From positions 1,004,220 through 1,068,219 of the forward strand of contig NZ_OZ026463.1 of assembly GCF_964019715.1 (NCBI RefSeq): DNA of 64,000 nt, given 5' to 3'. Below are positions 4,010 through 59,921 of this stretch, piece after piece. The stretch comes from Spiroplasma endosymbiont of Lonchoptera lutea. Its GTDB lineage: Bacteria; Bacillota_I; Bacilli_A; Mycoplasmatales; Nriv7. A program made the position numbers and the translations under genes. The notes beneath the pieces were generated by a model. That model saw only the letters and a list, made by a program, of their open reading frames with translations. It had not been told where the DNA came from and did not search any database. Each line of letters starts with the position of its first letter. The first letter of the stretch is position 1.

Positions 4010-5293
4010 TTACTTATATTCAAAAAAGAACGCTTGCTTAGTTCCAAATTCTTGAAATATTCCTGTAATATCCGATAAACGATAAAAATGATTAATTTTT
4101 CTTTCCAAACTAATTAACTTATCAGTAACACTAGTATTAAGAAAAAACCCTTGATTAGTATCGCCTTGCTCAAATATTCCCGTAGTATCCGATAAACGAT
4201 AAAAATGATTAATTTTGCTTTCCAAACTAATTAACTTATTATTAGCATTGGCATCAAAAACGAACGCTTGATTAGTATCGCCTTGCTCAAATATTCCCGT
4301 AGTATCCGATAAACGATAAAAATGATTAATTTTGCTTTCCAAACTAATTAACTTATTATTAGCATTGGCATCAAAAACGAACGCTTGATTAGTATCGCCT
4401 TGCTCAAATATTCCCGTAGTATCCGATAAACGATAAAAACGATTAATTTTGCTTTTCAAACTAATTAACTTATTACTAGCATTGGCATCAAAAACAAACC
4501 CTTGCTTGGTATCAGCTTGCTCAAATATTCCCATAGTATCCGATAAACGATAAAAATGATTAATTTTGCTTTTCAAACTAATTAACTTATTACTAGCATT
4601 GGCATCAAAAACGAACGCTTGATTAGTAGTAAATTCTTGAAATATGCCCCTAGACTCCGATAAGCATCAAAAATTACTAAGTATTTTATTTAAATTAGTT
4701 ATTTTATTATTAGCAACAGCATCAAAAAATCACAATTGACGCTTACTATCACCAATTATTGCTCTGGTGTTTGATAAGCGTCAAAAATTAATAACAGTTT
4801 CACTGAAACTACTTAACTTATTATTATCAAAAAAGGACGCTTTTCCTTGCAAGTTTTCTTTAAATATTCCCGTAGTATCTGATAAACGCTTAAAAATGTC
4901 AAATTTTTTATTTAAATTAATTAATTTATTACTAGCATTAACATCAAAAAAGAACGCTTGATTAGTAGTAAATTCTTTAAATATTCCCGTAGTATCCGAT
5001 AAGCGTCAAAAATTATCAATTTTTTGATTTAAACTAATTAACTTATTATTAGCATTGGCATCAAAAACAAAAGCTTGTCGCGAAGAATCTTCTTTCAATA
5101 TCATTAAGGTGTTAGATAAGCGTCAATTTATTAATTCAACATTTTCCATATTTATATTTATATCTAATTTGTTTAAATGTAATGATTTTGTTGCTGGTGT
5201 TGTCAGCCTATCACTAGAACTACAAGCGATAAAATTTATTATTACACTACTATTACAAGCAATCGTTCCTAATATTTTAAATAATCTTTTCAT
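4010..5293 (-). CDS. Lipoprotein with ten 39-residue tandem repeats
   Basis: 427 aa if TGA is Trp. The N-terminus MKRLFKILGTIACNSSVIIN leads into a lipobox-like FIAC-SSS, so a lipid-anchored surface protein is likely. From about residue 50 it is built of about ten units of 39 aa (117 bp) with consensus KIxxFxRLSDTTGIF, then QAFVFDAN and NKLISL. The first five units are diverged; units 6-9 are nearly identical in DNA as well, which suggests recent expansion. I do not recognise the family; it does not match the DUF285/BspA consensus known from other mollicutes. No neighbour suggests a job; adhesion or antigenic variation by repeat number is an inference. Ends at a strong terminator. Confidence 0.8.
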
Positions 5294-5459
5294 ATCATTT
5301 TAGACCCCCGATTATTTATTTTCATACACAATAATTATTAGTTTCATTATATCACTAAATAGAAAAAAGAAAATGACTCTTATATATAAAACTGATGATA
5401 AAACTGATAATAATTACTTAGCGTATAAATTCAAATAACACTAGCGGGGAACATATTTC

Positions 5460-11884: not shown

Positions 11885-12945
11885 CCTGAATTGTAAATAT
11901 AAATGGGACAGTTTTTTAAAATAATTGTATTAAATCTATTGGTCTTTTATAAGATAATGATTTTCTGGGTGTAGAATTAATTTGAAATGCTATAGAATTT
12001 AAGTCTTTTTGTTTATATGAAGATAAATCAGTAGATTTTGGTAAATATCTTCTTAAAATACCATTATTGTTCTCATTTAAACCTCTTTGACAAGGTTTGC
12101 CGGCATCTGCAAAATAAATTTTAACATTACAATTTTTTTCAATTAATTTTCATTTACTAAATTCTTTACCACGATCAAAAGTAATAGTTTTAATTGTTCC
12201 TGGTATTAATTTTGAAATAAATTTTATTATACTTTGTGTAATACTTTCTGCTTTATGATTTTTAGTTTTCAAAGGAATTGTGGTTTTTGATCATATATCA
12301 GCTAAAGTAATAATAGAACTTTTATGATCTTTACCAACGATAATATCTCCCTCTAAATGGCCAAATTCTTGTATATTTTTAATATTTGGAATGATTAAAT
12401 TTCTTTCATGAATAGATTTACAATTATTAATTCTGCCCCTAGTTTCTTTTTGTTTATGAGGTTTATTTTTGCCTTTTCTCAATAAATTTTTTTCATCAAA
12501 ACCCATTCGATTTGTTTTAAACATGTTATATAAAGTTTTTGTTGAAATATTTTTTATTTTATTTTTCTTTAAAAAATCAGCAATTATATCAAGAGCATAA
12601 TTTTTAGTAATTAACAAATGATTGATAGTATTAATTTCTGTTAAAGTTAAAATTATTAATTTTCTACCTGCATTTTGTTTATTTTTTTGAACTTGATTCA
12701 ATATTTCTAATGGTAATAAGTTTTGATTTAATAATTTACAAACTCTGTGTACAGTTGATTTACTATAATCAATTGCTTTTGCTATTTTACGAATAGAAAA
12801 TCCATAACTTTTATATTCTTTTATTGCTATTATTGATTCAATAGTCAGATACTTATACATTGTGCTAATTCCTTTCTTTTCTTAATTATAGAATTAACAC
12901 AATTTGTTTTTTATATAAGTGTCCTTTTTAATTTTACATTTCAGG
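11885..12945 (-). mobile_element. IS30-A copy between tig/CIRCE and lon
   Basis: Complete 1061-bp element, imperfect terminal inverted repeats beginning CCTGAA, transposase co-oriented with lon. Flanking trinucleotides are TAT and TGT, a possible 3-bp target duplication with one mismatch. Confidence 0.93.
11916..12860 (-). CDS. IS30-family transposase (IS30-A)
   Basis: 314 aa with Trp at TGA codons. The N-terminal HTH reads SIRKIAKAIDYSKSTVHRVC; the DDE core has FGHLEGD, TITFDRGKEF and RGLNENNNGIL. This copy has Ile instead of Thr after the first catalytic Asp (GDIIVG). The AAGAAAGGAATT leader provides a Shine-Dalgarno. Confidence 0.93.
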
Positions 12946-24580: not shown

Positions 24581-25641
24581 CCTGAAATGTAAAATTAAAA
24601 AGGACACTTATATAAAAAACAAATTGTGTTAATTCTATAATTAAGAAAAGAAAGGAATTAGCACAATGTATAAGTATCTGACTATTGAATCAATAATAGC
24701 AATAAAAGAATATAAAAGTTATGGATTTTCTATTCGTAAAATAGCAAAAGCAATTGATTATAGTAAATCAACTGTACACAGAGTTTGTAAATTATTAAAT
24801 CAAAACTTATTACCATTAGAAATATTAAATCAAGTTCAAAAAAATAAACAAAATGCAGGTAGAAAATTAATAATTTTAACTTTAACAGAAATTAATACTA
24901 TCAATCATTTGTTAATTACTAAAAATTATGCTCTTGATATAATTGCTGATTTTTTAAAGAAAAATAAAATAAAAAATATTTCAACAAAAACTTTATATAA
25001 CATGTTTAAAACAAATCGAATGGGTTTTGATGAAAAAAATTTATTGAGAAAAGGCAAAAATAAACCTCATAAACAAAAAGAAACTAGGGGCAGAATTAAT
25101 AATTGTAAATCTATTCATGAAAGAAATTTAATCATTCCAAATATTAAAAATATACAAGAATTTGGCCATTTAGAGGGAGATACTATCGTTGGTAAAAATC
25201 ATAAAAGTTCTATTATTACTTTAGCTGATATATGATCAAAAACCACAATTCCTTTGAAAACTAAAAATCATAAAGCAGAAAGTATTACACAAAGTATAAT
25301 AAAATTTATTTCAAAATTAATACCAGGAACAATTAAAACTATTACTTTTGATCGTGGTAAAGAATTTAGTAAATGAAAATTAATTGAAAAAAATTGTAAT
25401 GTTAAAATTTATTTTGCAGATGCCGGCAAACCTTGTCAAAGAGGTTTAAATGAGAACAATAATGGTATTTTAAGAAGATATTTACCAAAATCTACTGATT
25501 TATCTTCATATAAACAAAAAGACTTAAATTCTATAGCATTTCAAATTAATTCTACACCCAAAAAATCATTATCTTATAAAAGACCAATAGATTTAATACA
25601 ATTATTTTAAAAAACTGTCCCATTTATATTTACAATTCAGG
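24581..25641 (+). mobile_element. IS30-A copy (complete)
   Basis: 1061 bp with both termini; abuts an inverted fragment on the left, chromosomal DNA (TTAATCAC) on the right. No target duplication visible. Confidence 0.93.
24666..25610 (+). CDS. IS30-family transposase (IS30-A)
   Basis: 314 aa, DDE residues intact. Differs from the consensus by VGKNHKSS (Asp to Asn) and TPKKSL (Arg to Lys). Confidence 0.92.
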
Positions 25642-31835: not shown

Positions 31836-32077
31836 TATAGTAAAATTGATACATTACCAATAAGATTTATTTATTTTAGGAGGAATTACTATTGAAACCA
31901 CGCTTATTATCAGGTATTACTAATACTGGAAAAATTACTATTGGTAATTATATTGGTATAGTAAAATTGATACATTACCAATAAGATTTATTTATTTTAG
32001 GAGGAATTACTATTGAAACCACGCTTATTATCAGGTATTACTAATACTGGAAAAATTACTATTGGTAATTATATTGG
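31836..32077 (+). repeat. 121-bp tandem duplication of the trpS 5' region
   Basis: Units 31836-31956 and 31957-32077 appear identical. Each carries the leader, the AGGAGG Shine-Dalgarno, the TTG start and the first 22 codons of trpS. In the upstream unit the frame runs on into the second unit's leader and stops after about 30 codons (NYIGIVKLIHYQ end). Confidence 0.93.
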
Positions 32078-33020
32078 TGTTATTCAAAATTTTATTAAAT
32101 TACAAGAAGAATATGATGTTTTTATCTTTGTTGCCAATTTGCATGCTATTGTCTCAATAAAAAATCATGACCACGATGTTCTTAAAAATAATATTCGTGA
32201 TTTAGTTGCCTTATATGTTGCTTGTGGTTTAGATCCCAATAAGATTACAATTTTTGCTCAATCTGACATTTTAGAGCATTGCCAATTAGGTCATATTCTG
32301 CTATGTCATACATCAATGGGAGAACTAAATCGCATGACACAATTTAAAGATAAAACACAATCATTTAAACAACATAATAATACTGAAACGATACCAACAG
32401 GATTATTTACTTATCCAGCATTAATGGCAGCTGATATTTTACTATATGATGCTGCTATTGTTCCTGTGGGAATTGATCAAAAGCAACATCTAGAATTAAC
32501 AAGAAATATTGCGATCAGAATGAATAATAAATATGGTAATATCTTTACAATTCCAGAACCATATATTGCTCCTAATGGTAAAAAAATAATGAACCTACAA
32601 AATCCCTTAAAAAAAATGTCAAAATCACATGAAAATCCTAAAACTTATATTTCTCTTTTAGATAATTTAAATGATGTTACCACAAAAATTAAAAGTGCCA
32701 TTACTGATAGTGAAAATAAAATTTTTTATGATGAAATTAATAAACCAGGAATTAGTAATCTTTTAAATATTTACTGTGCTTTTACAAATACTACAATTGA
32801 AGAAGCAACTAATGAGTTTTCTGACCAAAATTATGGTGCTTTTAAAGAAAAAATCGCTAAAGTTGTTTGCCTTCAACTTGAAATTATTCAAAGAAAATAT
32901 AACGAAATTATTGCTAATGATGAATGAAAACATTGATTATTGCAAGGAAAAGAAAAAGCAACAAAAATTGCTCACGAAAAATTGCAATTAATCCAAGATA
33001 AAATTGAGATTAATTACTAA
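32013..33020 (+). CDS. trpS: Tryptophanyl-tRNA synthetase
   Basis: 335 aa, class I synthetase. HIGH-equivalent TGKITIGNYIG (the ITIGNY form also seen in Bacillus), MSKSHE for KMSKS, plus PALMAADILLYDAAIVPVG and GIDQKQHLELTRNIA. The start codon is TTG with an AGGAGG site; no ATG lies closer. The 5' region is duplicated (31836-32077). In this genetic code TrpRS must charge tRNA(s) reading both UGG and UGA. Confidence 0.95.
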
Positions 33021-39632: not shown

Positions 39633-40693
39633 CCTGAATTGTAAATATAAATGGGACAGTTTTTTAAAATAATTGTATTAAATCTATTGGTCTTTTATAA
39701 GATAATGATTTTCTGGGTGTAGAATTAATTTGAAATGTTATAGAATTTAAGTCTTTTTGTTTATATGAAGATAAATCAGTAGATTTTGGTAAATATCTTC
39801 TTAAAATACCATTATTGTTCTCATTTAAACCTCTTTGACAAGGTTTTCCGGCATCTGCAAAATAAATTTTAACATTACAATTTTTTTCAATTAATTTTCA
39901 TTTACTAAATTCTTTACCACGATCAAAAGTAATAGTTTTAATTGTTCCTGGTATTAATTTTGAAATAAATTTTATTATACTTTGTGTAATACTTTCTGCT
40001 TTATGATTTTTAGTTTTCAAAGGAATTGTGGTTTTTGATCATATATCAGCTAAAGTAATAATAGAACTTTTATGATCTTTACCAACGATAGTATCTCCCT
40101 CTAAATGGCCAAATTCTTGTATATTTTTAATATTTGGAATGATTAAATTTCTTTCATGAATAGATTTACAATTATTAATTCTGCCCCTAGTTTCTTTTTG
40201 TTTATGAGGTTTATTTTTGCCTTTTCTCAATAAATTTTTTTCATCAAAACCCATTCGATTTGTTTTAAACATGTTATATAAAGTTTTTGTTGAAATATTT
40301 TTTATTTTATTTTTCTTTAAAAAATCAGCAATTATATCAAGAGCATAATTTTTAGTAATTAACAAATGATTGATAGTATTAATTTCTGTTAAAGTTAAAA
40401 TTATTAATTTTCTACCTGCATTTTGTTTATTTTTTTGAACTTGATTCAATATTTCTAATGGTAATAAGTTTTGATTTAATAATTTACAAACTCTGTGTAC
40501 AGTTGATTTACTATAATCAATTGCTTTTGCTATTTTACGAATAGAAAATCCATAACTTTTATATTCTTTTATTGCTATTATTGATTCAATAGTCAGATAC
40601 TTATACATTGTGCTAATTCCTTTCTTTTCTTAATTATAGAATTAACACAATTTGTTTTTTATATAAGTGTCCTTTTTAATTTTACATTTCAGG
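39633..40693 (-). mobile_element. IS30-A copy nested inside another IS30-A
   Basis: Complete 1061-bp element in the same orientation as the host copy. No clear target duplication because of the associated deletion. Confidence 0.93.
39664..40608 (-). CDS. IS30-family transposase (IS30-A)
   Basis: 314 aa, consensus sequence with DDE residues; in-frame TGA as Trp at LADIW and FSKW. Confidence 0.92.
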
Positions 40694-41075
40694 TTTCTTT
40701 AAAAAATCAGCAATTATATCAAGAGCATAATTTTTAGTAATTAACAAATGATTGATAGTATTAATTTCTGTTAAAGTTAAAATTATTAATTTTCTACCTG
40801 CATTTTGTTTATTTTTTTGAACTTGATTCAATATTTCTAATGGTAATAAGTTTTGATTTAATAATTTACAAACTCTGTGTACAGTTGATTTACTATAATC
40901 AATTGCTTTTGCTATTTTACGAATAGAAAATCCATAACTTTTATATTCTTTTATTGCTATTATTGATTCAATAGTCAGATACTTATACATTGTGCTAATT
41001 CCTTTCTTTTCTTAATTATAGAATTAACACAATTTGTTTTTTATATAAGTGTCCTTTTTAATTTTACATTTCAGG
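40694..41075 (-). mobile_element. IS30-A, left part of the split copy
   Basis: Transposase N-terminus (start at 40990, about 99 codons, then LKKPEM read-through into the nested copy) plus left terminus ending TTCAGG at 41075. Confidence 0.92.
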
Positions 41076-42286: not shown

Positions 42287-42421
42287 ATGTCAAGAAGTTA
42301 CATTGTGATGCATTCCCAAAGAAATTCAAAATTAATTAGAAAAAAATACAATCGTGTTAAGGTTAATCGTGGTTTTAACAAATTTAAGAAAAACTTTGAA
42401 TATAAATGATGAGTGCTTTAA
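42287..42421 (+). CDS. Plectrovirus small basic protein (44 aa)
   Basis: 44 aa, MSRSYIVMHSQRNSKLIRKK and so on, about one third Lys/Arg, ending KWWVL with Trp as TGA TGA. Missed by standard-code ORF calling. A DNA-binding or capsid-interior role is plausible. Shine-Dalgarno weak. Confidence 0.55.
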
Positions 42422-42440
42422 AAAGAAAGGGGGTGATTAT

Positions 42441-42686
42441 ATGATTGGAACTTTCTTGGCCGATGCACCAGTAACAGTAGAAAAAATAACAGCTAGTGAC
42501 GCGATGACTAAATTATGAAATGCAATTATAACTGCGTTTACTAAAATGTGAGAAATTATTGCTGTTAATATGCCACAAGTCGGTAACTTCTTTGCTGACT
42601 ACTGAATCTTCATTTTTCCATTTATTTTGGCAATATTCTTTATTTGCTTTAAAATGTTTAAAAAACTACTTGGAGCAGTACGCTAA
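42441..42686 (+). CDS. Plectrovirus probable major coat protein
   Basis: 81 aa. N-terminal MIGTFLADAPVTVEKITASD, an amphipathic middle (MTKLWNAIITAFTKMWEIIA), a TM helix (YWIFIFPFILAIFFICF) and a short basic C-terminus (KMFKKLLGAVR). This is the layout of filamentous phage coat proteins. Strong GAAAGGGGG Shine-Dalgarno suits a highly made product. Directly upstream of the Zot-like gene. Confidence 0.7.
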
Positions 42687-42710
42687 TAAAAAAATAAAGT
42701 GAGGTGCAAG

Positions 42711-43664
42711 ATGAAATTTTGCAAATGAATAATAGAAAAAAATAACCATTTTATTGAATTAAATCGCACCTCATTTTTAATTTTATGACATTGAGGAACA
42801 ATTTGATATATTTACAACGGTTATTTTAAAAACATTGTGAGCTATTTATTTTTAGCAGGTTGTATTTTAATTTTCCTTTTTGTTATTAATTTCTTAAAAA
42901 ACTCACCATTAAATATTGTTATTGGTTCATTAGGAACTGGAAAAACTGCCTTTCTAGTATACGCCTCAAAATTACTAAAAAAGAAAAAATATCATATCGC
43001 ATCAACATTTCCATTACTAGAAACCCAAAAATTAAGTTTAGGACATATGGGGTTGTTAGACTTTGATTATCCGGTATTGCCAGACAAAACCTTACTTTTG
43101 TGAGATGAAACCAATTTATTTTTAGAAGGAACTGATTGAGAAAAAAATAATACCAAAAACGAAGAAACCGGTATTCAAGAATATTTCGCTCTAGCACGGC
43201 ATTTTGGTCATATTGTCCTCGCTAGCGGTCAAAGAGATAAACATATTTGAGTTAAAGTTCGTGATATTGCCAACAATGTGATTGTGGGAATTCGCAAAAA
43301 ATCAGTTAATATTTTTCGCCCCTACTTAAAAGTTATTTATGGCGCCTTTACGAGCATTGAAGAATATGAACGCTGACGAAACACCTTAATTGATGCTAAA
43401 AATAGTAAAAAGGGTCGTCGCATTAAATATCGTGATATTCCTGAACTTGATATTTATTTTTTTAAACTAAAAATTCCTCTGCCAATATTAAACACTTACA
43501 ATTCTTTTTACCTAGCGTTTTTAAGAGATTACTTAAATTCAAAAGTAAATCCTGACTATGAAGATAAATACTATACTGACACAGCAATTGATTTAGAAGA
43601 TTTAGAATACTTAAAAATGGATAAATTTAGCAAATTTTTAAGAAAAATGAAAGAAAAGGAATAA
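42711..43664 (+). CDS. Plectrovirus Zot-like assembly ATPase
   Basis: 317 aa. Two N-terminal hydrophobic segments (TSFLILWHWGTIWYIY, LFLAGCILIFLFVINF), Walker A IGSLGTGKTAF near residue 75, Walker B-like KTLLLWDETNLF, and ASGQRDKHIWVKVRD, the pattern of Zot/pI proteins that extrude filamentous phage. The start at 42711 (MKFCKWIIEK) is supported by GAGGTG. All Trp but one are TGA. Confidence 0.85.
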
Positions 43665-43670
43665 TAAAAA

Positions 43671-43988
43671 ATGGAAAATCTCGCAAAAATGGCCGACTTT
43701 TTGGCCCAAATGCTTTATAAAGTTTTTGATCTAATTTGAAGTCTTGAAGTACCGGGAACGAATATTCAACTAATATTTCCTTTATTCTTAACACTAGCTG
43801 TAGAATTTCTTATGGCAATTATTCTTGGATTTGGTAGTCAACAAGTTAATTTAGAAAGGCAACGCCGATACGCCGTTAAAAATAGTGGTCGTTTGAGTGC
43901 TTGAGGAAAAGTTAAAAAACAAATACAACCAATAAATCCAAACAAAATTAATTGAAAACAAAGAAATAAAAAAAACAAAACAAGGTAA
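43671..43988 (+). CDS. Plectrovirus membrane protein (105 aa)
   Basis: 105 aa: MENLAKMADFLAQMLYKVFD, hydrophobic core (IQLIFPLFLTLAVEFLMAIILGF), strongly basic tail (KVKKQIQP, KINWKQRNKKNKTR). 6 bp after the Zot-like gene. Probably a virion or assembly protein. Confidence 0.65.
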
Positions 43989-43994
43989 CTAACG

Positions 43995-44243
43995 ATGTTT
44001 AAACTAATCATTATTTTTATCTTAATAACCGTTCTTGGACTTTTGGCTGGTAGTCATTTTGAAACTTTAACTAACTATATTAGCGAAGGCCTTGCCAATT
44101 TCCAAAAATTTATTACTAGCAATTTAACAATTTTAGAACTATTTAAACCAATGGCTCGGACATTTTCTCAACATCCAATCTTTACCATTCTTGGTGTTAC
44201 TTGTGTACTTATTGCTTTATTTATTGTGATTAAAGGACGGTAA
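43995..44243 (+). CDS. Plectrovirus membrane protein (82 aa)
   Basis: 82 aa with hydrophobic segments at both ends (LIIIFILITVLGLLAG and IFTILGVTCVLIALFIVI) and a helical middle. Resembles a minor coat protein of filamentous phage. Confidence 0.65.
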   Translation: MFKLIIIFILITVLGLLAGSHFETLTNYISEGLANFQKFITSNLTILELFKPMARTFSQHPIFTILGVTCVLIALFIVIKGR

Positions 44244-44335: not shown

Positions 44336-45396
44336 CCTGAAATGTAAAATTAAAAAGGACACTTATATAAAAAACAAATTGTGTTAATTCTATAATTAAG
44401 AAAAGAAAGGAATTAGCACAATGTATAAGTATCTGACTATTGAATCAATAATAGCAATAAAAGAATATAAAAGTTATGGATTTTCTATTCGTAAAATAGC
44501 AAAAGCAATTGATTATAGTAAATCAACTGTACACAGAGTTTGTAAATTATTAAATCAAAACTTATTACCATTAGAAATATTGAATCAAGTTCAAAAAAAT
44601 AAACAAAATGCAGGTAGAAAATTAATAATTTTAACTTTAACAGAAATTAATACTATCAATCATTTGTTAATTACTAAAAATTATGCTCTTGATATAATTG
44701 CTGATTTTTTAAAGAAAAATAAAATAAAAAATATTTCAACAAAAACTTTATATAACATGTTTAAAACAAATCGAATGGGTTTTGATGAAAAAAATTTATT
44801 GAGAAAAGGCAAAAATAAACCTCATAAACAAAAAGAAACTAGGGGCAGAATTAATAATTGTAAATCTATTCATGAAAGAAATTTAATCATTCCAAATATT
44901 AAAAATATACAAGAATTTGGCCATTTAGAGGGAGATACTATCGTTGGTAAAGATCATAAAAGTTCTATTATTACTTTAGCTGATATATGATCAAAAACCA
45001 CAATTCCTTTGAAAACTAAAAATCATAAAGCAGAAAGTATTACACAAAGTATAATAAAATTTATTTCAAAATTAATACCAGGAACAATTAAAACTATTAC
45101 TTTTGATCGTGGTAAAGAATTTAGTAAATGAAAATTAATTGAAAAAAATTGTAATGTTAAAATTTATTTTGCAGATGCCGGAAAACCTTGTCAAAGAGGT
45201 TTAAATGAGAACAATAATGGTATTTTAAGAAGATATTTACCAAAATCTACTGATTTATCTTCATATAAACAAAAAGACTTAAATTCTATAGCATTTCAAA
45301 TTAATTCTACACCCAGAAAATCATTATCTTATAAAAGACCAATAGATTTAATACAATTATTTTAAAAAACTGTCCCATTTATATTTACAATTCAGG
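44336..45396 (+). mobile_element. IS30-A copy heading a tandem array
   Basis: Complete 1061-bp copy in the plectrovirus block; followed directly by two 682-bp repeats of its own right part. Confidence 0.94.
44421..45365 (+). CDS. IS30-family transposase (IS30-A)
   Basis: 314 aa consensus copy with intact HTH and DDE residues; likely active. Confidence 0.93.
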
Positions 45397-47272: not shown

Positions 47273-48333
47273 CCTGAATTGTAAATATAAATGGGACAGT
47301 TTTTTAAAATAATTGTATTAAATCTATTGGTCTTTTATAAGATAATGATTTTCTGGGTGTAGAATTAATTTGAAATGCTATAGAATTTAAGTCTTTTTGT
47401 TTATATGAAGATAAATCAGTAGATTTTGGTAAATATCTTCTTAAAATACCATTATTGTTCTCATTTAAACCTCTTTGACAAGGTTTGCCGGCATCTGCAA
47501 AATAAATTTTAACATTACAATTTTTTTCAATTAATTTTCATTTACTAAATTCTTTACCACGATCAAAAGTAATAGTTTTAATTGTTCCTGGTATTAATTT
47601 TGAAATAAATTTTATTATACTTTGTGTAATACTTTCTGCTTTATGATTTTTAGTTTTCAAAGGAATTGTGGTTTTTGATCATATATCAGCTAAAGTAATA
47701 ATAGAACTTTTATGATCTTTACCAACGATAGTATCTCCCTCTAAATGGCCAAATTCTTGTATATTTTTAATATTTGGAATGATTAAATTTCTTTCATGAA
47801 TAGATTTACAATTATTAATTCTGCCCCTAGTTTCTTTTTGTTTATGAGGTTTATTTTTGCCTTTTCTCAATAAATTTTTTTCATCAAAACCCATTCGATT
47901 TGTTTTAAACATGTTATATAAAGTTTTTGTTGAAATATTTTTTATTTTATTTTTCTTTAAAAAATCAGCAATTATATCAAGAGCATAATTTTTAGTAATT
48001 AACAAATGATTGATAGTATTAATTTCTGTTAAAGTTAAAATTATTAATTTTCTACCTGCATTTTGTTTATTTTTTTGAACTTGATTCAATATTTCTAATG
48101 GTAATAAGTTTTGATTTAATAATTTACAAACTCTGTGTACAGTTGATTTACTATAATCAATTGCTTTTGCTATTTTACGAATAGAAAATCCATAACTTTT
48201 ATATTCTTTTATTGCTATTATTGATTCAATAGTCAGATACTTATACATTGTGCTAATTCCTTTCTTTTCTTAATTATAGAATTAACACAATTTGTTTTTT
48301 ATATAAGTGTCCTTTTTAATTTTACATTTCAGG
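47273..48333 (-). mobile_element. IS30-A copy downstream of rpmB
   Basis: Complete 1061 bp; no matching trinucleotides at the flanks (TAC on the left, TTT on the right). Confidence 0.93.
47304..48248 (-). CDS. IS30-family transposase (IS30-A)
   Basis: 314 aa consensus copy, DDE intact; transcribed toward rpmB. Confidence 0.92.
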
Positions 48334-48504: not shown

Positions 48505-49565
48505 CCTGAATTGTAAATATAAATGGGACAGTTTTTTAAAATAATTGTATTAAATCTATTGGTCTTTTATAAGATAATGATTTTCTGGGTGTAGAATTAA
48601 TTTGAAATGCTATAGAATTTAAGTCTTTTTGTTTATATGAAGATAAATCAGTAGATTTTGGTAAATATCTTCTTAAAATACCATTATTGTTCTCATTTAA
48701 ACCTCTTTGACAAGGTTTGCCGGCATCTGCAAAATAAATTTTAACATTACAATTTTTTTCAATTAATTTTCATTTACTAAATTCTTTACCACGATCAAAA
48801 GTAATAGTTTTAATTGTTCCTGGTATTAATTTTGAAATAAATTTTATTATACTTTGTGTAATACTTTCTGCTTTATGATTTTTAGTTTTCAAAGGAATTG
48901 TGGTTTTTGATCATATATCAGCTAAAGTAATAATAGAACTTTTATGATCTTTACCAACGATAGTATCTCCCTCTAAATGGCCAAATTCTTGTATATTTTT
49001 AATATTTGGAATGATTAAATTTCTTTCATGAATAGATTTACAATTATTAATTCTGCCCCTAGTTTCTTTTTGTTTATGAGGTTTATTTTTGCCTTTTCTC
49101 AATAAATTTTTTTCATCAAAACCCATTCGATTTGTTTTAAACATGTTATATAAAGTTTTTGTTGAAATATTTTTTATTTTATTTTTCTTTAAAAAATCAG
49201 CAATTATATCAAGAGCATAATTTTTAGTAATTAACAAATGATTGATAGTATTAATTTCTGTTAAAGTTAAAATTATTAATTTTCTACCTGCATTTTGTTT
49301 ATTTTTTTGAACTTGATTCAATATTTCTAATGGTAATAAGTTTTGATTTAATAATTTACAAACTCTGTGTACAGTTGATTTACTATAATCAATTGCTTTT
49401 GCTATTTTACGAATAGAAAATCCATAACTTTTATATTCTTTTATTGCTATTATTGATTCAATAGTCAGATACTTATACATTGTGCTAATTCCTTTCTTTT
49501 CTTAATTATAGAATTAACACAATTTGTTTTTTATATAAGTGTCCTTTTTAATTTTACATTTCAGG
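48505..49565 (-). mobile_element. IS30-A copy inside thiN
   Basis: Complete 1061 bp flanked by the 3-bp duplication ATA (48502-48504 and 49566-49568). Confidence 0.95.
48536..49480 (-). CDS. IS30-family transposase (IS30-A)
   Basis: 314 aa consensus copy, DDE intact. Confidence 0.92.
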
Positions 49566-58364: not shown

Positions 58365-59921
58365 TTAACTCTCTAAACCATATCAAAAAATACCATCTTT
58401 GATAATATTTAAAGTAAAAAAACCAACTTCTAATTGAGCAGAAGCATTACTTAACCCCGAATGTCCTCGATAAGCACCCTGTGTTTTCTTTGGATTCCAT
58501 TGAACCAATATTTTAGTTTCATCAGTCAAAGGCTTAAAGACAGAACTTGAAAAGCGACTTTCTAGCAATAATTTTTTATTATACTCTTCAATTGTATCTT
58601 GAAAAATCTTATGCATTTTTTTACTTGTATTAAAAATCTTATTGCCTTCACCACCATTAGTTAAGTTCACATATTTTTTTCATACAGATGGAGGAACTAT
58701 CAGATATACAGAATCGTTATGAGAACCTCGAAATTTATTCTTTTCAGAAAAAACTTTTGAAAAATAATACACCAAAACTTCACTAATATTCAATAATTGT
58801 GTCTCAAATGATGCTTTAGAAACTTTAATCTTATTATCTTTTAATTCAATTCTCTGCAATGGTAATTCAAAATAAGTAGCATTTCAAAAAGTAAAATCAA
58901 AACTTCCCAATAAAATTTCTCTATTATCCAGTGCGCTAACAAAATCAGAATTATGTTTCTGAAATTCTCTATCTTTAGTAATAAAATCACTTATTTTAGT
59001 ATTCATTTCTACACCATTAGAAATTTTCAAAAATTCCAAATATTCCTTAGAACTTGTTGTTGAATTTAAAGAATTTATTAATAGATTTCTTTTTAAACCC
59101 GTATTAGAAATACTTAATTTTTCTTCATTATCACTATTAATTTGGTTTAAGATTTGCTTTTTTATATTTGTTTCACTTAAAGCTTGAAAATTTATTTTTT
59201 CTAAATCAAAGGTAACATTCTCTTTAATATGTTTTTGTACTAACGCCGTTAACTCAGTAATCCTATTCGTAAAAGCTCTTTCATCCTGTGTTAAATAAAT
59301 ATCAAGATAAATATTATGTGTGGCTTGACCTTGCTTTAAAGCCAAATCAAGTTCAATTGATAATTGTAGTTTATAAACATAATGCTCATTATTATCTTCA
59401 GATTGACTATTTAAACTATTTGATTTCTTATTTTTTAAATCGCCAAGAACTCTAATCATTTGGTCAAAAGATACTTTTGTTACTATAAATCTAGACTTAT
59501 CTTTACTAAAACTTGTCGGAGTGTTTATATTTGCAAAATAAATCATTTTTTCTTTAAGTTTCCTGTTAATAGAACTAATTAAATCATTTTGCAATATTCG
59601 CAAAATCTGTTCACTAATTTGCTCATTATTTTCTAAATACACAGCGAAATTTTCAACTTGTGCTTTATTAACTAATGGATTCATAGTACTTTTAATTTGG
59701 GAATCATTTAACCCTAAACTATTAGCAGTATAAATTTTTTCTTGATGTTTATTCATTACTTCTTCATCAATTAAATTTTTGGCCTGAACAAGGGGATTTA
59801 CTATAGCATTTTCTTCAGAACTTTCAGATATATCATCATTATTTTTACTGCAAGCAACTACACTTAAAACAGGAATAGCAGTTAACAACATTGTAATCAA
59901 ATTTTTTAAGATATTTCTCAT
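58365..59921 (-). CDS. Lipoprotein of unknown function (518 aa)
   Basis: Continuous over TGA-Trp codons (FTFWNATYF, PSVWKKY, IFWYGLES end). N-terminal signal MRNILKNLITMLLTAIPVL, then a lipobox SVVAC-SKNN, typical of mollicute prolipoproteins. The mature part is hydrophilic and mostly helical (EEVMNKHQEKIYTANSLGL, ITELTALVQKHIKENVTF), with a more beta-like end (NSVFKPLT-like, TKILVQWNPKK). Length and composition differ from spiralin. Family not recognised. Single gene with its own terminator. Confidence 0.8.

Follow-up and report, generated by a model that had tools for sequence, protein, structure and literature searches.

The question raised by this locus is whether a lipoprotein built from nearly identical tandem repeats is a variable surface antigen or a protein of defined fold, in which repeat number has a structural meaning. 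The window that we analysed (a stretch of 64,000 nucleotides) comes from the 1.33-Mb, single-contig genome of the Spiroplasma endosymbiont of Lonchoptera lutea, and the gene lies at 4010-5293 on the minus strand. It encodes a predicted exported propeller lipoprotein of 427 residues (P0001), is identical in the genome copy and occurs once in its own genome. With five TGA codons, the full ORF can be read solely when TGA is decoded as Trp; under translation table 11 it breaks up, the longest piece listed being 188 residues. The sequence-only reading described the product as a lipoprotein, and the N-terminus agreed with this: by eye, the translation showed a signal peptide and the lipobox FIAC (residues 21-24, with Cys24; 5222-5293, minus strand), and AF2 placed a helix at residues 2-14. 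No lipoprotein model was among the matches of the NCBIfam scan of P0001, and the lipobox call is one made by eye. Pattern matching placed an extended -10-like element, TGATATAAT, at 5346-5354 (minus strand), with the start codon 52 nt downstream, although such a consensus match does not equal a proven promoter; the promoter-site scan as a whole was uninformative, since 23 sites were seen and 20.5 were expected. A second lipoprotein-like ORF (518 residues, lipobox by eye, no Pfam match) was noticed at 58365-59921 on the minus strand.

At the DNA level, TRF reported an array of 117-bp units (9.1 copies) at 4020-5067. Delimiting the units by hand at the motif LS[DNE] yielded ten, all in frame, with lengths of 39, 39, 36, 38, 39, 39, 39, 39, 39 and 22 residues, close to the roughly ten 39-residue repeats counted earlier. 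On the minus strand they comprise unit 1 (5003-5119, residues 59-97), unit 2 (4886-5002, residues 98-136), the 36-residue unit 3 (4778-4885, residues 137-172), the 38-residue and most divergent unit 4 (4664-4777, residues 173-210), unit 5 (4547-4663, residues 211-249), unit 6 (4430-4546, residues 250-288), unit 7 (4313-4429, residues 289-327), unit 8 (4196-4312, residues 328-366), unit 9 (4079-4195, residues 367-405) and unit 10 (4013-4078, residues 406-427), which is cut to 22 residues, lacks strand 4 and ends with C-terminal FFFEYK. The repeat is not a product of chance, as self-identity at lag 117 was 0.671, far above that of 200 codon shuffles (mean 0.315, maximum 0.351).

The recent in-frame amplification proposed for this gene was supported by units 7 and 8, which showed no difference over all 117 nt; a run of 173 nt (4267-4439, minus strand) recurs exactly at lag 117 (4150-4322). 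Pairwise DNA identity among units 5-9 was 78.6-100%, and unit 6 differed from units 7/8 at 10 nt and unit 9 at 12 nt. The description of units 6-9 as nearly identical thus holds for units 6-8 (91.5-100%), whereas unit 9 is looser (85.5-89.7%). Units 1-4 are older than the later units. Among units 5-9, dS was 0.09-0.25 and dN was 0.08-0.25; the near equality of the two suggests little purifying constraint on changes between these units. Diversifying selection between them was also considered and was set aside, the sites being too few to claim it. A phase-switch tract was not found in the gene or in the 507 bp preceding it, where we observed neither homopolymers of at least 8 A/T or at least 6 G/C nor AT, TA, GA or TC runs of at least five units.

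Tandem duplication was also noticed elsewhere in the window. A perfect 121-bp duplication at 31836-32078 (2.0 copies, 100%) lies over the start of the ORF at 32013-33020, which we take to be tryptophanyl-tRNA-synthetase-like, and a perfect 382-bp duplication at 40312-41075 lies within an IS transposase copy. Near-identical transposase ORFs of 314 residues are many (e.g. 11916-12860, 24666-25610, 44421-45365, 47304-48248 and 48536-49480), and a run of small membrane-protein ORFs at 42354-44243 (plus strand) looked by eye like a plectrovirus remnant, with no Pfam match in either of the two ORFs scanned.

Structure prediction of consecutive units, proposed earlier as a check, was carried out with AF2 and an alignment of relatives (A3; 11 family rows, five of them fragments). 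The protein was confidently modelled as a beta-propeller (pLDDT 82.9, pTM 0.74). Each unit of the model has four strands, of which a pair often merges into one long strand, and mean pLDDT per ten residues is 80-93 from residue 61 onward. When this model was compared with the PDB by Foldseek, 1307 of 1743 matches had E<=0.001, and the best 50 of the 1743, judged by title, were almost all propeller proteins; TM-scores among the matches listed were low to modest (0.24-0.52). In a VIA-align 2 comparison covering 971 chains, the Vps10 domain of SorLA ranked first (Z 17.5, rmsd 3.5, 376 aligned, model residues 32-427), followed by eIF2A (Z 16.1, 322 aligned), sortilin (Z 16.0 with 386 aligned and 15.8 with 378 aligned) and DPP4 (Z 15.8, 286 aligned), where Z gaps below 1 are ties. 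We take eIF2A to be nine-bladed and DPP4 eight-bladed. The Vps10 domains of SorLA and sortilin have ten blades, as stated in the portion of PMC2716378 available, and the longer stretch aligned to them favours ten. We therefore regard the beta-propeller fold of P0001 as a strong prediction, and ten blades in one ring as a likely, predicted number.

The ends of the protein fit such a ring. The C-terminus lies one residue past strand 3 of the last blade, and an N-terminal AF2 strand (residues 35-39; 5177-5191, minus strand) would supply the missing fourth strand, giving the velcro anatomy of closed propellers. The earlier interpretation was thus partly supported, in the lipoprotein-like N-terminus, the recent amplification and the unrecognised family; it changed in that the units are predicted propeller blades and not an unstructured antigen array. 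If such blades close a ring, the copy number in P0001 is tied to ring size.

None of the propeller families in Pfam and NCBIfam matched P0001 in our scans, and the Pfam models Reg_prop and PQQ_2 were not listed for it up to E=10. The one model above its gathering cut-off, Fascin (PF06268; 28.9 bits, cut-off 23.1), was rejected: it was unlisted in the relatives L066, L067, L092 and L095 described below, and fascin is a beta-trefoil whereas P0001 is modelled as a propeller. The Asp-box motif S-x-D-x-G-x-[TS]-W, searched with F and Y also allowed in the last position, was absent from P0001 and four relatives, and the Asp-box Pfam family was not listed for P0001. Homology to sarpin or PQQ blades was suggested by eye and by a search with P0002, a sarpin-like lipoprotein of the congener G002 (L002:1174-2343) with a Reg_prop match in Pfam, which hit the P0001 gene with E=3.1e-5 and 22% identity. 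Profiles did not uphold it: in hhalign, 28 family blade pairs compared with 4 and with 130 sarpin-like pairs reached a probability of 0.1, while PQQ and sarpin-like blades reached 90.7 and 91.9. The P0002 match was not used as a sign of homology, since reversed-sequence controls indicated that repetition can yield such scores.

Relatives were sought in 320 genomes of the order. The P0001 query had matches in 10 of these at E<=0.01; at E<=0.001, profile A1 found 6 genomes and profile A2 found 10, several of the latter matches covering just the first 32-139 positions, for the most part the end with the signal peptide. Clear members of the family were found in Spiroplasma sp. JKS002669 (L066) and in a Spiroplasma MAG (L067), with 36% and 30% identity to P0001 over their own length. 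Both share with P0001 the FEYK/FEYY end that follows a cut last unit, so that the velcro anatomy is conserved in them, and both lack the lipobox Cys. Their gene neighbourhoods differ and give no functional clue. The congener G001 has two members (L092 and L094) and a broken copy (L093), the genome G050 has one member (L095) and broken family pieces, and G045 has broken pieces. The HMM counted 10 units in P0001, 9 in L066 and 8 in L095; L067 has 9, composed of 8 by HMM and a cut ninth by eye, and L092 and L094 each show 9 strand-3 motifs by eye versus 8 weak HMM matches. Relatives with eight or nine units indicate that blade number has changed within this family. Intact, full-length relatives in other genomes, together with the lack of a curated-library propeller model, bear out the earlier suggestion of an unrecognised repeat family.

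The P0001 query found no relative in plasmids, viral contigs and genome contigs, and a scan of genome contigs with alignment A1 gave 2 loci. Against PDB sequences, neither the A1 profile nor P0001 gave anything convincing, the best match of P0001 being a repebody (E=0.0041). The stretches that we read around rpsP in 4 congeners contained the P0001 gene in none. We also noticed that a Hymenobacter plasmid protein resembles L092 (E=6e-4), and that frame-broken family copies in G050 and G045 (L068, L069, L070 and L072) stand in some cases beside a gene that, by eye, is fructose-bisphosphate-aldolase-like. The broken copies agree with PMC9218822, according to which propellers with highly repetitive blades decay.

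Propellers of other kinds are present in these genomes. The genome of P0001 has three sarpin/Reg_prop-type genes (L045, L046 and L047), with Reg_prop confirmed by Pfam in L045 and L046; in the first (L045:1063-2382, plus strand), Reg_prop blades and a Spiralin domain, each scoring above its Pfam cut-off, are joined in one protein that also has a hydrophobic stretch at its C-terminus. In P0002, residues 156-300 form four consecutive 39-residue units that are identical or nearly so in protein, a freshly amplified propeller. Among 28 Spiroplasma plasmid records, P0002 matched S. citri genes named adhesin, adhesion-related protein or two-component regulator propeller. Together with its Reg_prop match, this suggests that the 39-42-residue sarpin repeats of the S. 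citri adhesins are propeller blades of the Reg_prop type. The word 'propeller' does not occur in PMC2386487 and PMC5266718, which deal with sarpin, whereas NCBI product names on some plasmids use it. In the congener G001, a secreted PQQ-like propeller (L048:3005-4792, plus strand; PQQ_2 above cut-off, Beta-prop_ACSF4 below it with 96 bits) is encoded about 1.9 kb from rpsP, the neighbourhood that the P0001 gene occupies in its own genome, on the opposite strand and with a different blade type.

Which structure, then, do the ten units form? We consider it rather probable that P0001 is a lipid-anchored, ligand-binding ten-blade propeller of the cell surface, probably used in host contact, that grows by in-frame duplication of blades. 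A smaller but real share of probability goes to a ring of nine or fewer blades carrying one surplus blade, unstructured or looped out, that was freshly duplicated and has not yet been purged. The extra unit duplicates its neighbour exactly, intact relatives have 8 or 9 units, and there is a precedent in the designed nine-blade Tako9, which formed eight blades with one unfolded; the five-blade WRAP dimer, also described in the accessible part of PMC6805158, did not yield ten. In view of these failures the tenth blade of P0001 could hang loose, and the available text of PMC9218822 likewise suggests that surplus blades may stay unstructured. The model, however, is confident across all ten units, and P0001 aligns to ten-bladed domains over 376-386 residues.

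Alternatively, repeat number could vary for immune escape, without any defined ring, as in a size- or phase-variable antigen like Mycoplasma Vlp. Exact in-frame repeats, the lipobox and nonsynonymous changes per site about as frequent as synonymous ones speak for such an antigen. We find it unlikely, given regular four-strand units with closure anatomy, relatives that group at 8-9 units, and a single-copy gene in which a switching tract is absent. Still less credible, and in our view very improbable, is a surface fibre in the form of a beta-solenoid or beta-helix of 39-residue coils. It is the model of P0001 alone that would speak for it, with its long strands and with best Foldseek rows that are mainly beta-helix proteins; that model had a pLDDT of only 48.7 and no Foldseek match at E<=0.001, and inclusion of relatives turned it into the confident propeller.

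In the preferred ten-blade reading, mature P0001 would be a single propeller of ten four-stranded blades, one 39-residue repeat each, with the N-terminal strand serving as strand 4 of the last blade and thereby closing the ring. The lipid anchor would presumably tether the ring to the outer side of the cell's only membrane: in a wall-less cell with one membrane an exported lipoprotein should face outward, which would make the ring a binding platform. Its wide faces and tunnel may bind a ligand, plausibly derived from the host, by analogy with ScARP3d, whose repeat domain, when coated onto beads, makes leafhopper cells take them up (PMC3485318). Recombination between exact 117-bp units would add or remove blades in frame, and the event that produced units 7/8 would most simply have taken nine blades to ten. 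The identity of these units suggests that the last change was a gain, although gene conversion can leave the same trace with the number unchanged. P0001 may also act in adhesion and vary in repeat number between isolates. That the protein is a natural bacterial ten-blade propeller without Asp-boxes, which has only just arisen from a nine-bladed ancestor by one exact in-frame duplication, in a family closing at eight, nine or ten blades, is a narrower proposal, which we advance tentatively and rate at slightly less than an even chance.

Compared with known systems, P0001 resembles the recently amplified propellers (WRAP from Nostoc punctiforme and those in the accessible part of PMC9218822) in near-identical tandem blades, predicted velcro closure and ongoing amplification. 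Those propellers come from lineages already known, such as WD40, whereas the blades of P0001 match none of the propeller models in Pfam and NCBIfam; neither Spiroplasma nor Mollicutes is mentioned in the main text of PMC9218822. The Vps10 domains of sortilin and SorLA have the overall fold and the ring size that are predicted for P0001 (Z 16-17.5), but P0001 is bacterial, has no Asp-box and no post-propeller domain, has regular blades and shares 7-8% identity with them. The ScARP/SARP proteins of Spiroplasma citri are likewise exported repeat proteins with units of about 39 residues (sarpin 39-42), but with 6-8 repeats versus ten and no blade-profile similarity. In ScARP, a conserved region, a transmembrane segment and a KR tail follow the repeats (PMC2386487, part available), and all three are missing in P0001. 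Other secreted propellers, namely the PQQ-like/Reg_prop proteins of Spiroplasma and the lepidopteran propellins derived from Spiroplasma, are common in the group according to the accessible parts of PMC12453411 and PMC11837612. The propellin models presented there are six-bladed with other blades, and P0001 matches none of those families. We found no account of the P0001 family, nor of any Spiroplasma propeller with ten blades, in the available portions of the open-licence literature.

Whether propellers can add a blade and still close is open in the amplification literature, and constructs designed to have nine or ten blades frequently fail (PMC6805158). The ten-bladed fold was, according to the accessible portion of the 2009 Asp-box paper, then known in Asp-box proteins alone (PMC2716378). 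P0001 is, by prediction, an amplified-blade propeller with blades unrecognised by curated libraries and an unusual ring size that is scarcely known among natural proteins. A natural family of eight, nine and ten units, including an exact fresh duplicate, would make blade addition directly testable, and, if the prediction is true, P0001 adds another kind of secreted propeller to Spiroplasma.
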